From: Fodinibius sp. Rm-B-1B1-1
GTDB lineage: Bacteria > Bacteroidota > Rhodothermia > Balneolales > Balneolaceae
Length of the DNA: 64,000 nucleotides
Assembly: GCF_038594945.1 (NCBI RefSeq)
Contig: NZ_JBCFYD010000002.1
Location: 620,001 to 684,000 of the forward strand
Direction: 5' to 3'
Positions 42,096 through 61,834 of this stretch are shown here, piece after piece. Numbering within the stretch: the stretch's first letter is position 1; each line of letters opens with the position of its first letter. Under the pieces are notes generated by a model that saw only the letters and a list, made by a program, of their open reading frames with translations, did not search any database and was not told the origin of the DNA. The position numbers and the translations under genes were made by a program.

Positions 42096-43124
42096 ATGGC
42101 AAGTAGTTATTCAGTAAAGAAGAACAAAAGTAAAGGACAGTCTAAAAAGCCTATTCTTATAACGCAGAATCCTATCATGGAGGAGCTGATAGCTAAGGTG
42201 AAATTAGTTGCTAAAACATCAGCTACACTTCTAATTACGGGAGAGAATGGTACAGGAAAAGAGGTTTTGGCTCAACTGGTTCATTACTACAGTGATAGAA
42301 GAGACAATGAATTAGTGGCTATTAACTGTGGAGCCATCCCAACGGATCTGGTCGAAAGCGAACTTTTTGGCCATGAGAAAGGAGCTTTTACCGGCGCTCA
42401 TGCTCAGAAAAAAGGTTGTTTTGAGCTTGCTCACCAAAGCACGTTATTTTTGGATGAAATTGGGGAGATGCCTAAATCAATCCAAGTTAAATTATTACGT
42501 GCTGTCGAGTTAGGTTCATTTAGAAGGGTTGGGGGCCAGGAAGAGATTGAAGTAGATGTAACACTCATATCTGCTACCAATAAAGTTCTTTTTGATCAGG
42601 TTCAATCCGGGAGTTTTAGAGAAGATTTATTTTACCGATTGAATGTTATTGAACTTTATGTACCTCCATTACGTCATCGTAAAGAAGATATCCCTTTGTT
42701 GGTTGAGTTCTACAAGAATCATTTTGTAGAATCTTACAACATGGGAGACATTGAATTCAATGACCAGATTATGGATATGTTTTTATCCTATGATTGGCCT
42801 GGTAACGTACGTGAGCTCAAGAATGTAGTTGAGCGTAGCATAGTTCTTTCAGAGGGTGCTGAAGTAGATATGGACGTAATACCTTCGCGCATTCACCGCG
42901 GCGAAAATATTTATCCGGTGTGCAGTAGTAATCCCTACGATAAAATAATTCAAATCCCAATTGGTACAAGTTTAGAAGAAATAGAACGTCGTGTTATTGA
43001 TCAAACGCTCTATTCGGTTGATAATAATAAGACTGAAGCTGCTAAAATTTTGGGATTTACCCGCAAGACGTTACACAATAAGCTAAGCAAGTACGCATCA
43101 GAAGAGAAAGAAACCAATGATTAA
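42096..43124 (+). CDS. Sigma-54-dependent activator without a sensory domain
   Basis: A 342-residue bacterial enhancer-binding protein. The N-terminus is only about 20 basic residues, so no receiver, GAF or PAS domain exists. The AAA+ domain is complete: Walker A GENGTGKE near 48, the sigma-54 contact loop GAFTGA near 97, Walker B LFLDEIGEMP near 118, arginine fingers in FREDLFYRL near 174, and sensor II WPGNVRELKN near 234. A Fis-type helix-turn-helix closes the protein (about 305-335: NKTEAAKILGFTRKTLHNKL). Family knowledge: proteins lacking a sensor, such as PspF, are active unless held by a partner. The degenerate relative 150 bases away, on the other strand, is a candidate partner. Confidence 0.93.
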   Translation: MASSYSVKKNKSKGQSKKPILITQNPIMEELIAKVKLVAKTSATLLITGENGTGKEVLAQLVHYYSDRRDNELVAINCGAIPTDLVESELFGHEKGAFTGAHAQKKGCFELAHQSTLFLDEIGEMPKSIQVKLLRAVELGSFRRVGGQEEIEVDVTLISATNKVLFDQVQSGSFREDLFYRLNVIELYVPPLRHRKEDIPLLVEFYKNHFVESYNMGDIEFNDQIMDMFLSYDWPGNVRELKNVVERSIVLSEGAEVDMDVIPSRIHRGENIYPVCSSNPYDKIIQIPIGTSLEEIERRVIDQTLYSVDNNKTEAAKILGFTRKTLHNKLSKYASEEKETND

Positions 43125-43276: not shown

Positions 43277-44122
43277 TTATCCTTTTATACCTTTCGGATC
43301 GTCAATCTTATAGGGCAAATTCCAGTTTATAGTAAATGGGAGATGTTCTGACTTTATAGTTTGCCCAAAAGATAGTATTGCCCCCTGTAAAATAGCATTT
43401 TTCAGCTGACGTATATTGCCCGGCCAACTGTAATTGAAACAGTTAGATAGAGCTTGCGATGATATTCCAAGGTCTTTAAAGTCGGCATTTGCTTTTTTTA
43501 TCTCTTCCAAGAAATGATCGATTAGTACGGGTATATCTTCTTTACGTTCGCGAAGGGGAGGTAACATAATCACCATGGGATCCAGTTTATCTAAAAGAAC
43601 CTTCCATACATCGGTATTGATGATATCACGGTACGACTCCTGATTAAAGGAAAGAATGATCCGTGGCTTTAGTTTATTATTCTGATTATTGCGATACAGT
43701 TGATGAAATCCTTTATGGATCGAATCAATGATTTGATCCATGTATTTTGGTGATAGTTCGGAAAATTGATCCAGATATAGTACTCCGCTTTCGGCCTTTT
43801 CCAGGGCATCATACCTTAGGGTAAGTTGATTCTCTTCAAAATTTAGCTGCCCCCAAAAGGCGTCCTTATAATCAGTTTCGTTAATATCTACGCAATAAAA
43901 TGAGACGAAAGGTTTTGATAATCGATTGCTATTTTTGTGGATAGTTTCAGCAATAATCTTTTTTCCAGAACCAATCTCTCCAACAATTACAACATTGGAT
44001 TCTAATTTAGCTATTTGTAAAACTTTATGGAAAATGTCCTGCATTAAAAAACTTACAAATGAAGTTTCTAAATCAGAAAGAAGTACTGTTTTTGTTTCTG
44101 TATTTTTTTGTTCGGTAAGCAT
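43277..44122 (-). CDS. Degenerate sigma-54 activator-like AAA+ protein
   Basis: A 281-residue paralogue of bacterial enhancer-binding AAA+ domains. Walker A GEIGSGKK (about 48-55) and sensor II WPGNIRQLKN (about 232) are kept. Lost: the GAFTGA loop (the region reads AFWGQLNFEENQLTL), the Walker B glutamate (LYLDQFSEL, Q for E, about 115), both arginine-finger positions (VWKVLLDKLDP in place of FREDLYYRL), and the whole C-terminal helix-turn-helix. It would be expected to bind ATP poorly or without hydrolysis and not to open promoters. PPLRERKEDIPVLIDHF is well kept, so the fold is maintained. A sigma-54-like promoter precedes it. Role as a brake or co-subunit of the neighbouring activator is inference. 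Confidence 0.85.
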   Translation of the reverse strand: MLTEQKNTETKTVLLSDLETSFVSFLMQDIFHKVLQIAKLESNVVIVGEIGSGKKIIAETIHKNSNRLSKPFVSFYCVDINETDYKDAFWGQLNFEENQLTLRYDALEKAESGVLYLDQFSELSPKYMDQIIDSIHKGFHQLYRNNQNNKLKPRIILSFNQESYRDIINTDVWKVLLDKLDPMVIMLPPLRERKEDIPVLIDHFLEEIKKANADFKDLGISSQALSNCFNYSWPGNIRQLKNAILQGAILSFGQTIKSEHLPFTINWNLPYKIDDPKGIKG

Positions 44123-44180: not shown

Positions 44181-44197
44181 TACAATAAATGTGCCAA
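44181..44197 (-). promoter_or_regulatory. Sigma-54-like promoter for the degenerate activator
   Basis: Minus strand TTGGCACATTTATTGTA: TGGCAC at -24 and TTGT at -12 with the GG-N10-G register of the consensus TGGCACG-N4-TTGCW; the C of the -12 GC is T. Predicted start of transcription is about 50 bases before the ATG at 44122. Confidence 0.6.
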
Positions 44198-44478
44198 TAA
44201 ATTCTGACTATAGGCAAAAGGGATACAGATTTGTTTAAATACCAGATTTAAAACGAAGAGATGAAAATCTGTGAATAAATTTCATAGATAGGTTTGAGTT
44301 AAGTGTAATATTGATTCGGAAGGTTAAAAGAGGGGTAGGCGATGAATTTTTTATTCTTAAAGACACATAGGGCATTGTTTAGGTTATCAAAAGAAAAATC
44401 GGGGATTATGACTCATGAGATTATAATTTGACGCAAAACATATAGTGGCTTAAATGATAGTTGGCTCCCAGATTATTC

Positions 44479-44496
44479 TTGGCGCGTTTGTTGCTT
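44479..44496 (+). promoter_or_regulatory. Canonical sigma-54 promoter of the glycosyltransferase gene
   Basis: TTGGCGCGTTTGTTGCTT has GG at -24 and GC at -12 in exact register, with seven of eight conserved outer bases. Predicted transcription start is near 44506, about 85 bases before the ATG at 44591. This is the best match of the seven in the window. Confidence 0.75.
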
Positions 44497-44590: not shown

Positions 44591-45829
44591 ATGATTATAA
44601 TTGAGGGATTAAATATTTTATTACTGGCAGTAACCGTTTTGTTTATCGGCTACTATGTTTTGCTGGGGGTTTTGGCCTTTACAAATAAAAGAGAGATAGA
44701 CTACTCTACGGAAAAGGTCCGCAAATATGCCATAGTGTTGCTTGCCCAAAATGAGGGAAATACGTTCTCACGATCACTGTATAGTTTATCTGGATTAGTA
44801 TATCCCAAAAATAAATATGACTTATTTGTTATAGCGAATAATTTGTCTGATCAAGTAATTAAAGAGGCTGAGAGTTTGGGAGCAATTGCGTTAATGTTGT
44901 CTGAGGAAGAAAACGCTGCTAACAAAGATATAATTTTAGCACGTGCTTTTGATCATATCATGCAACGAACAAAGCAATATGATGCTCTTATAGTATTTAG
45001 TTCAGATTGCTTGGTTTCCGGTAATTATTTGAAAGTAATGAACCATTATTTGGAACAAGGAAGTGAAGTTGTACAGAGTTGTCATCAAGTTTTGCCTCAG
45101 ACAAGGAATTGGGTTCAAAAAGTTTTGAAAATTGAATTTCTCATAAATAACAAAATAAAGTCTCTGGGTCGGAGATTTCTCGGCTCAAGTATGCTATTAC
45201 GGGATACTGGAACCTGTTTTGCAGTTCCTTTACTACGTGAAATTAGATGGGATATCAATGAGCAAAAGAACATCATTGAATACGGTTTGGAACTGCAGCT
45301 AAAGGGAATTGAAATTGATTTTGCCCCGGAAGCAATATTCTTTTCAGAGATTGTTGATCAGCAAAATATCCCATCATACAAAAAGACATTGCTCGAAAAG
45401 TATAATATTATTAGAAAGTATGGTCCACGTTTTTTAAAGCTGTTTATTCAAACGAAATCTTTCCAATATTTAGATCGATATATTGATTTGGTTTTACCCA
45501 AATTTTCAACAGCTATCAACTTAATAATGGGGGCTATTCTTTTTAATGGTATTGGATGGAGTATAGGTTTGATTCCGATGATCTATACTATCATGTGGTT
45601 GGAAATTATGATAGCCGGATGGCTTTGCGTTTTTATGCTATTAGTTGTTTTGGAAGAAAAAGATAAGTTGGTAAAATCGACTGTTTACTTACCTATTATA
45701 TTTTTTATAAATATAAGCCCTTTTTGGAGGTGGTTTTCGCTTTCTGAGAATAAGAAAGGTATTAAAATGGATAAAGTAGACAGAGATCGAGAGCCGTTAA
45801 TTTTTTCTGATGATAATCACTCTATGTAA
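44591..45829 (+). CDS. Membrane GT2-fold glycosyltransferase with degraded motifs
   Basis: A 412-residue protein with a GT2/cellulose-synthase-like layout: one N-terminal membrane helix (about 5-30), a cytoplasmic GT-A domain (about 45-250) and three membrane helices near 300-380. KYAIVLLAQNEGNTFSRSL opens the domain as in GT2 enzymes. The catalytic motifs are altered: the DxD site reads FSSDC, the TED site reads EYGLEL with neither the Glu-Asp pair, and QxxRW has no counterpart in IPSYKKTLLEKYN. It may be an inactive or unusual transferase, or a transport/scaffold partner. A canonical sigma-54 promoter precedes it, tying it to the neighbouring activator genes. No other genes lie in its transcription unit; dnaB converges. 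Confidence 0.78.
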   Translation: MIIIEGLNILLLAVTVLFIGYYVLLGVLAFTNKREIDYSTEKVRKYAIVLLAQNEGNTFSRSLYSLSGLVYPKNKYDLFVIANNLSDQVIKEAESLGAIALMLSEEENAANKDIILARAFDHIMQRTKQYDALIVFSSDCLVSGNYLKVMNHYLEQGSEVVQSCHQVLPQTRNWVQKVLKIEFLINNKIKSLGRRFLGSSMLLRDTGTCFAVPLLREIRWDINEQKNIIEYGLELQLKGIEIDFAPEAIFFSEIVDQQNIPSYKKTLLEKYNIIRKYGPRFLKLFIQTKSFQYLDRYIDLVLPKFSTAINLIMGAILFNGIGWSIGLIPMIYTIMWLEIMIAGWLCVFMLLVVLEEKDKLVKSTVYLPIIFFINISPFWRWFSLSENKKGIKMDKVDRDREPLIFSDDNHSM

Positions 45830-54723: not shown

Positions 54724-55854
54724 CTATTCTTCAGTACTGAATCCATTTACAACAGCATGGGCAATAAAATAGATATCTCCCGAAAGTCCCTCAACTTCAT
54801 AGCTGTACTCGGTGATATTTTCATGGGTGTTTTGATTACCGTATTGACCCGGAGCAGCTGTGTATTGACCATTCACTAACTGTGGATACGGTACAGTTCC
54901 TACATGCAAATGAGTTTCGGTAAGGGTATAAGGCGTGTTGCCGAAAGTCGAGGTCTCGGTCATAGTATATGTTATCGCTAAGGTACCATTTGAATAGGTT
55001 GCTGTTAATTGACCTACCAATATTCCTTTGCTGAGATCACATTGGCCTGCCCCGGCATAGATGTCATAGACTAATTCACCACTGTTTTCAGCAATGGGCC
55101 CATTGGTCCAGCCCCAGTTGTTGAAGGAGACATTGGGAATAATTTCCTCGTCAAAACAGGTAGAGTAATTGTCGTTGACTGCTTTTTGGCCATTTTTACT
55201 ATTTGTTTTGACGGCAAAGGCCGTTTCATCCCCAAGCATAATTGTTTGTCCATCATTTTCGATGAGTGTTACACCAGGTAGATTGAGGGATGATTTATTT
55301 TGGACCGATCCAACAGTATGTTCTACTTGGGCAACAATACTTTTTACCTTCTGGATATCAAAGTGAGTGTTACCGTTGCTGTAAATGTTGGATGGAATGT
55401 TGTCGTAGGTAGCAATATTGTCAACATTGAAAGCTGGATTATCTATAAGCGACCAGATAATCACTTGGATTTCACGAAATGTTAAATTTGGATCATTGGC
55501 TTTTAACTGATCTTTAATGCTCATAAAGTAATTCAAGGTTTCCCACTGCGGATGGCCTTTGGTGGAATACATGTTAACGTCATCTTGGTCTCCCTTTATA
55601 TATTCGTCGTTCCACTCTATACACCAACCTTCGCGCATTGATCCATCAGCCAGGGTAACTACGAAAAAGCTGTCATATTTGTCGCCTGTTTGTAAGTTCA
55701 TCGATGTACTTTGTGCTCCTTGTACCGGTGTTACCGTTTTTACGTATTCAAAACTTTCTTCTATCGACGTGTTTGTACTTGGTTCACAGCTTGTAAATAG
55801 CCAGGCAAGGCTAATTGTGGCCACAATAATTGAATGAAATTTTATCGTCTTCAT
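54724..55854 (-). CDS. Exported lipoprotein with thioester-domain-like N-terminus
   Basis: A 376-residue protein with a lipoprotein signal (lipobox LFTSC, Cys about 23). The region from 55 to 190 has REGWCIEWND near 72-82 and a helical part with NYFMSIKDQL, TFREIQVIIWSLIDN, resembling Cys-containing adhesin domains that form internal thioesters; the partner Gln cannot be fixed. The C-terminal part has YDIYAGAGQCD, LTETHLHVG and a YFIAHAVV end, a module seen in other exported proteins of Gram-positive and FCB bacteria. The function is unknown; surface attachment is a guess. A sigma-54-like promoter lies far upstream (56078-56093). Confidence 0.75.
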   Translation of the reverse strand: MKTIKFHSIIVATISLAWLFTSCEPSTNTSIEESFEYVKTVTPVQGAQSTSMNLQTGDKYDSFFVVTLADGSMREGWCIEWNDEYIKGDQDDVNMYSTKGHPQWETLNYFMSIKDQLKANDPNLTFREIQVIIWSLIDNPAFNVDNIATYDNIPSNIYSNGNTHFDIQKVKSIVAQVEHTVGSVQNKSSLNLPGVTLIENDGQTIMLGDETAFAVKTNSKNGQKAVNDNYSTCFDEEIIPNVSFNNWGWTNGPIAENSGELVYDIYAGAGQCDLSKGILVGQLTATYSNGTLAITYTMTETSTFGNTPYTLTETHLHVGTVPYPQLVNGQYTAAPGQYGNQNTHENITEYSYEVEGLSGDIYFIAHAVVNGFSTEE

Positions 55855-56077: not shown

Positions 56078-56093
56078 TACAACATTTGTGCCA
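56078..56093 (-). promoter_or_regulatory. Sigma-54-like promoter toward the lipoprotein gene
   Basis: Minus strand TGGCACAAATGTTGTA: TGGCAC at -24, TTGT at -12, exact GG-N10-G register. It would give a leader of about 210 bases, longer than for the other sites. Confidence 0.55.
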
Positions 56094-56296
56094 TTTTCAG
56101 GGATAGTTATTTTATCCTTTCCAAGAAGAAAAAAGTATAGGAGACTTTAACATGATGTTAGACATAGAGTAATATTTACATCAGCGGTTGGGTAATTTTT
56201 AATCAGGCATTTCTTTTTTCAGAAGTTTAAAGTGGACCAGATCAAAAATAAGTGGTTAGAAGTACTTTTATAGCCTTGAGTGTCCCAATGGTATTA

Positions 56297-56313
56297 TTGG
56301 CACGTTTATTGAA
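56297..56313 (+). promoter_or_regulatory. Sigma-54-like promoter toward the epimerase gene
   Basis: TTGGCACGTTTATTGAA: eight of eight -24 consensus bases (TTGGCACG) and TTGA at -12, where the consensus has TTGC. Predicted start of transcription near 56324, about 100 bases before the ATG at 56427. Confidence 0.65.
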
Positions 56314-61558: not shown

Positions 61559-61575
61559 AACAATAGTTGTGCCAA
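61559..61575 (-). promoter_or_regulatory. Sigma-54-like promoter of the dehydrogenase-cytochrome gene
   Basis: Minus strand TTGGCACAACTATTGTT: TTGGCAC at -24 and TTGT at -12 in GG-N10-G register. Predicted start near 61548, about 70 bases before the ATG at 61478. Confidence 0.6.
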
Positions 61576-61818
61576 TCTCTTACAACAGGTAATTGTATCG
61601 GTAAGAAATTAGGTATGGCTTATTAAATTCTTTTTTGACTGCTACCAATTTCAAAAAAGATAAAGAGCTGGCAGTAACGGTAATTTTTACTACATCATCC
61701 GCGTAAAAACTACTCATTTCTTTTTTTCTAACTGGTTGGGAAACTTAGGAGAAGCTAAAAATGAATATAATCTATATATATCCGGTACATAGAGATAGGG
61801 TTAGTTGTAATTATAAAC

Positions 61819-61834
61819 TGGCACACTTATTGAA
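61819..61834 (+). promoter_or_regulatory. Sigma-54-like promoter of the epimerase gene at 62021
   Basis: TGGCACACTTATTGAA: TGGCAC at -24 and TTGA at -12 in register. It would give a leader of about 175 bases. Confidence 0.6.

Follow-up and report, generated by a model that had tools for sequence, protein, structure and literature searches.

A catalytically dead relative encoded beside a sensor-less sigma-54 activator as its probable built-in brake or tuner

The means of restraint is understood for few sensor-less sigma-54 activators, and the locus described here raises the question of what a catalytically dead look-alike does when it is encoded beside such an activator. The pair lies in a 64 kb stretch of DNA, the whole of which was analysed and is referred to below as the window; the look-alike is named DEAD and its neighbour ACT (Table 1). 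We find that DEAD probably acts on ACT as a built-in brake or tuner. If this is true, a dead subunit that nature has retained next to its working partner over order-scale evolutionary time, and that this partner apparently induces, would offer a ready-made test of the number of functional subunits needed in a bacterial enhancer-binding protein (bEBP) ring, which has until now been addressed with engineered linked PspF dimers. It would also supply a simple genetic scheme for self-limiting exopolysaccharide production.

Table 1 Features of the ACT/DEAD locus and of the other sigma-54-type promoter pairs in the window
Feature	Position	Strand	Remark
ACT	42096..43124	+	Sensor-less sigma-54 enhancer-binding protein, 342 aa, AAA+ and Fis-type helix-turn-helix
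DEAD	43277..44122	-	Predicted catalytically dead, HTH-less enhancer-binding-protein-like AAA+ protein, 281 aa
DEAD sigma-54 -24/-12 site, TTGGCACATTTATTGTA	44181..44197	-	75 bp upstream of ATG; pattern match
Probable enhancer (UAS) for ACT, TGTGAATAAATTTCATA-N16-GTGTAATATTGATTC	44270..44317	+	Between the two divergent promoters
Glycosyltransferase sigma-54 -24/-12 site, TTGGCGCGTTTGTTGCT	44479..44495	+	Top-scoring site in the window
EpsU-like family 2 glycosyltransferase, divergent target gene	44591..45829	+	Syntenic in the genus
Second divergent sigma-54 pair	56080-56094, 56297-56311	-, +	Between 376-aa protein and sugar epimerase
Third divergent sigma-54 pair	61561-61575, 61818-61832	-, +	Between glucose/sorbosone dehydrogenase-like gene and sugar epimerase

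Pfam matched ACT to PF00158 (Sigma54_activat, 225.1 bits), PF25601 and PF02954 (HTH_8), with only ~20 residues N-terminal to the AAA+ core and no sensor domain. Together with the motif table, this agrees with the preliminary description, which had credited the gene at 42096 with every active motif and no sensory domain. The Sigma54_activat match is much weaker in DEAD (68.8 bits), where PF25601 (AAA_lid_14) scored 73.2 bits and Pfam gave no HTH_8 match, leaving an AAA+ core and lid alone; the two proteins share 26% identity over 253 residues (BLASTP). The AlphaFold model of DEAD (pLDDT 80, pTM 0.70) aligned with the AAA+ domains of FlrC, VpsR and PspF at VIA-align Z ~20, and has a short beta-hairpin (residues 92-103) at the position of the GAFTGA loop. 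By its Sigma54_activat and AAA_lid_14 matches and the fit of the model, DEAD belongs structurally to the bacterial enhancer-binding protein AAA+ fold.

The motifs were compared in a residue table, an alignment of DEAD sequences with 24 ACT rows. The window DEAD retains a Walker A (GEIGSGKK) and the sensor II Arg (WPGNIRQL), has FEENQLTL at the GAFTGA position and LYLDQFSE at Walker B, with Gln for Glu, carries DVWKVLLDKLDP in place of FREDLFYRLNV, which holds both arginine fingers, and has lost the switch Asn (SFYC vs AINCG). This balance of kept and lost motifs, including the missing helix-turn-helix (HTH), is what had been read from the minus-strand protein at the outset, and the table and Pfam bear it out. 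A structure-based and sequence check for a hidden GAFTGA or arginine fingers found none, and because the alignment is gapless from the finger positions to the PPLR anchor, misalignment does not explain the absent fingers. The Walker A Lys is followed by a second Lys rather than by Asp/Glu, so that ATP-dependent assembly may be impaired, a point against the ring model proposed below.

The same pattern runs through the family. GAFTGA, the Walker B Glu and both arginine fingers are missing from every full DEAD sequence in the residue table, and several of these sequences also lack the Walker B Asp. Even the motifs that are kept are not invariant, since the Walker A Lys is missing from one relative (G011) and the sensor II Arg from four (G001, G007, G011 and G069). 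The C-terminal HTH is absent in the 23 core members, with a remnant in G014 and G062. The 24 ACT rows all retain GAFTGA, the Walker B Asp-Glu, both arginine fingers and the HTH, apart from G012, which reads GSFTGA; the Walker A is truncated in one late-starting gene model. Judged from its sequence, DEAD lacks what a functional sigma-54 activator has (GAFTGA, the Walker B Asp-Glu with two fingers, and the HTH) and is a catalytically dead enhancer-binding-protein-like AAA+ protein.

DEAD is present in about 29 of the 129 genomes of the order: a profile search found it in 23, further divergent members occupy the same gene slot in G014, G017, G066, G071 and G012, and one more was found in G062. 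In a first sample of 59 related genomes there were 14 members at 50-100% identity (with orthologues of 47-68% in the 13 other genomes), separated by a clear gap from the next matches at ≤37%. None was found outside the order among 394 genomes drawn from the phylum, where all candidates scored like ordinary enhancer-binding proteins; among the sampled genomes the DEAD clade is thus confined to one order. A contig scan with the single protein, based on short non-conserved patterns, yielded nothing beyond generic enhancer-binding proteins of Mucilaginibacter (27-30% identity). In the tree DEAD forms a single clade (support 100/100) and ACT a separate one (100/96), with long branches leaving the deeper placement unsure. 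We also considered DEAD as a recent duplicate of ACT and rejected this reading because the clades are separate. As dS is saturated, only pN/pS can be quoted for DEAD; it was 0.12-0.27 in six pairs, which indicates that the protein is under purifying selection. The loss of motifs in DEAD is not local decay. Relatives with a decayed HTH occur in G014 and G062 (L044 14626-15618 and L200), and the DEAD proteins of G017, G066 and G071 have partial C-terminal tails. These divergent members suggest a path in which catalysis was lost first, followed by an HTH remnant, partial tails and finally the HTH-less core.

Across the order, ACT and DEAD were both found in 25 genomes, DEAD only in 4, ACT only in 3 and neither in 97 (Fisher p = 2e-19, shared descent ignored), and the DEAD tree mirrors the ACT tree (r = 0.94 over 17 genomes), although both the mirroring and the co-occurrence are partly due to shared vertical descent and linkage. 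Within the window's genus, 8 of 12 genomes have both genes and 4 have neither, so the two are found side by side in relatives at both levels, as the preliminary description required of a genuine pair. The four genomes with DEAD only are fragmented assemblies whose contigs stop short of the expected ACT position. ACT stands without DEAD in G039, G125 and G126, the latter two being incomplete assemblies, and on this showing has no strict need of DEAD. In G003 and G006 the site is empty: rnc adjoins dnaB, the ACT, DEAD and glycosyltransferase genes having been lost as a block, and the rnc-dnaB stretch of these two genomes contains no sigma-54 sites. A second ACT copy (66-68% identity) without DEAD occurs in three genomes of the genus (L129-L131; G011:C18, G002:C23 and G004:C2), near a ~1080-aa gene of unknown type.

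The surroundings of the pair point to polysaccharide. In most of the order, genes for a Wza-like exporter, a PorQ-like barrel, DEAD and a WecA-like phosphoglycosyltransferase (PGT) are followed by accessory genes, including those for GNAT and GH5 enzymes; ACT converges at the far end of this operon where the contig extends that far, and Wzz, tyrosine kinase and Wzy genes diverge from it. By its gene content, the DEAD locus in most of the order is a Wzy-type exopolysaccharide cluster. The window's genus has a reduced locus (rnc, ACT, DEAD, in some cases extra genes, the EpsU-like glycosyltransferase, dnaB), in which the glycosyltransferase matches NCBIfam EpsU at 118.8 bits, under the cut-off of 700. 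Within the genus the Wza-like exporter survives in G009 only, and the best genome-wide matches elsewhere are remote, at 26-30% for Wza and 34-40% for the transferase. In seven genomes of the genus (g1) the Wza-like and PGT genes are gone genome-wide and DEAD stays with ACT. That ACT and DEAD are retained or lost jointly despite the lost export genes indicates that DEAD tracks ACT, not the export machine.

What, then, controls DEAD itself? A pattern requiring GC at -12 does not pick the DEAD promoter, which was revealed by alignment of the intergenic region. A TTGGCAC/T-N5-TTG site precedes the first gene of the transcript that carries DEAD (DEAD or WZA-DEAD) at 24 of 26 loci, against a chance expectation of 0.1 on average and 1 at most in 200 simulations; in the window it occupies 44183-44197 on the minus strand. 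On the divergent side, the TTGGCGCGTTTGTTGCT site is near-identical in L031, L032 and L033 and recurs with changes in L035, and the divergent Wzz operon of other loci has TTGGCATAACAATTGCA-type sigma-54 sites. The -12 element differs between the two sides, being TTGT or TTGA in the DEAD/WZA promoters of all 24 listed loci and mostly TTGC in the Wzz and glycosyltransferase promoters, a difference that may mark two promoter classes. Between the divergent promoters lies the enhancer-like element, which scores 34.8 bits with a two-block matrix built from other loci, the window being held out; the runner-up among separate sites across the 64 kb reaches 16.8. One-block patterns match 44270 and 44303 exactly, with counts that are not significant.

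An rpoN gene was found in the genome. A second, weak match to the rpoN DNA-binding domain at G008:C5:206994-207302 has two in-frame stops and is possibly an rpoN remnant. From linkage and joint loss, we infer that ACT is the protein that binds the enhancer-like element, and the conserved sigma-54 site of the DEAD transcript next to this element suggests that ACT probably drives its own dead partner.

These observations are brought together in a reading that we hold to be about evenly poised between right and wrong, namely that DEAD is a catalytically dead partner of ACT, induced through sigma-54, which inserts as a subunit into ACT rings and acts on them as a brake. Judging from the conservation of promoters and enhancer, ACT would bind the enhancer and, with RNA polymerase-sigma-54, fire two divergent promoters, one serving exopolysaccharide genes (the glycosyltransferase at 44591 in the window; Wzz, tyrosine kinase and Wzy at other loci) and the other the DEAD-carrying transcript. 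With its AAA+ fold, P-loop and usually conserved sensor II, DEAD would join ACT subunits in mixed rings, where it would deprive the adjacent ATP site of arginine fingers and interrupt the row of adjacent L1 loops required for engaging sigma-54. As DEAD accumulates, ACT output would drop, giving a self-limiting brake in place of the missing sensor domain. PspF provides the experimental background, in that rings alternating wild-type and L1-dead (T86A) subunits give no transcription, adjacent L1 loops being required, and rings can tolerate slow-ATPase E108Q subunits (PMC4132715). DEAD combines the E108Q equivalent with loss of the L1 motif and of the fingers; its insertion into ACT rings should therefore inhibit, and inhibition combined with expression from a sigma-54 promoter would make a self-limiting loop. 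The broader claim, that an order-wide family of dead subunits, sigma-54-induced beside the partner's enhancer, enters the partner's hexamers and supplies negative feedback replacing a sensor domain, is put forward a little more tentatively, as falling just short of an even chance. Enhancer-binding protein hetero-oligomers are known but rarely reported (PMC9542535), and a literature search that took in few subscription journals found no family that has lost both catalysis and DNA binding and is apparently switched on by the very activator it accompanies.

The sign of the DEAD effect could be positive, since accounts of FleT and HrpR/HrpS present their hetero-oligomers as activating or co-dependent. 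FleT of Rhodobacter/Cereibacter sphaeroides, which is reported to help activate, is the closest precedent to DEAD in architecture and circuit: like DEAD it is AAA+ alone, with neither a regulatory nor a DNA-binding domain, and its expression is under FleQ and sigma-54, after which it assembles with FleQ into hetero-oligomers (PMC11999139, PMC7175178). It comes from a sigma-54 operon under the control of the partner activator, in which structural genes are encoded as well (PMC7175178, PMC7277832, PMC11999139). The FleT system serves flagella, whereas DEAD belongs to a different lineage and is linked to exopolysaccharide genes; DEAD is also without GAFTGA, the Walker B Glu and both fingers, FleT being compared here from published descriptions. 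On the FleT model, DEAD would be induced first, by ACT alone, and ACT-DEAD hetero-oligomers would then be active at a second promoter class (e.g. Wzz/Wzy), amounting to a positive checkpoint. The parallel extends to the dependence of FleT expression on FleQ and RpoN2 and to the different promoter class recognised by FleQ/FleT (PMC11999139), which the two -12 types seen here would match. We nevertheless regard such a switch as unlikely, though by no means far-fetched: the loss of GAFTGA, fingers and catalytic Glu makes a positive remodelling role harder, and mixed PspF rings with L1-dead subunits fail (PMC4132715). HrpR/HrpS of Pseudomonas syringae are likewise two sensor-less paralogous enhancer-binding proteins, and form a hetero-hexamer (PMC4145663, PMC9542535). 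Unlike this co-dependent activating complex, the ACT/DEAD pair includes a member that is predicted to be catalytically dead.

The proposed ACT/DEAD relationship also resembles PspF/PspA, in which a sensor-less activator is controlled in trans. PspA is itself expressed from the PspF regulon. An adaptor of the PspA or HrpV kind would restrain ACT through a non-ring surface and release it on an envelope or export signal, which would suit a sensor-less activator encoded beside envelope-polysaccharide genes, much as PspA holds PspF (PMC3791423). We consider this quite unlikely because DEAD, unlike the coiled-coil PspA, which is not AAA+ (PMC3791423), retains an enhancer-binding-type AAA+ core suggestive of ring-type contacts, shows no separate signal-binding domain, and has been retained in g1, where the export machinery able to signal is lost. 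A partner induced through sigma-54 has a nearer analogue in FleQ/FleT than in PspF/PspA.

Two further systems share single features with the locus. VpsR is a transcription factor with a direct action on DNA. It has in common with DEAD the AAA+ fold (Z 20.0), a broken GAFTGA and a link to exopolysaccharide, but DEAD has no DNA-binding domain, and DNA binding is already known to persist in proteins whose GAFTGA is broken (PMC3162934). In the PrsR/PEP-CTERM regulon a sigma-54 activator works through a conserved element upstream of polysaccharide-linked genes (PMC1569441); PrsR contains a receiver domain and is paired with a kinase, and no dead subunit is described there.

In most of the order the DEAD gene is flanked by those for the PorQ-like barrel and the WecA-like transferase, a position that would fit an AAA+ ATPase or scaffold repurposed for exopolysaccharide export or assembly and unrelated to transcription, but this is very unlikely given that DEAD stays with ACT in the seven g1 genomes without Wza-like and PGT genes and lacks the catalytic residues that an export ATPase requires. 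That DEAD is a decaying pseudogene or selfish remnant of no present function, as its stepwise motif loss with HTH remnants in G014 and G062 might imply, is barely credible, being strongly contradicted by intact ORFs order-wide, the low pN/pS, fixed synteny and a dedicated conserved promoter.

The window holds 6 sigma-54 sites against 1.4 expected, a number reached in 0 of 100 shuffles, and the six form three divergent pairs, all intergenic. The second and third pairs lie near sugar-nucleotide genes, which suggests a wider sigma-54 exopolysaccharide regulon in the window, and the 16.8-bit enhancer-like element, which is weak, starts at 56164, inside the second pair. The 376-aa protein flanking that pair (54724-55854) lies behind a sigma-54-type site and has no Pfam match; a relative at 28% identity is encoded ~5.4 kb downstream of rnc in G005 (L222 7434-8612).
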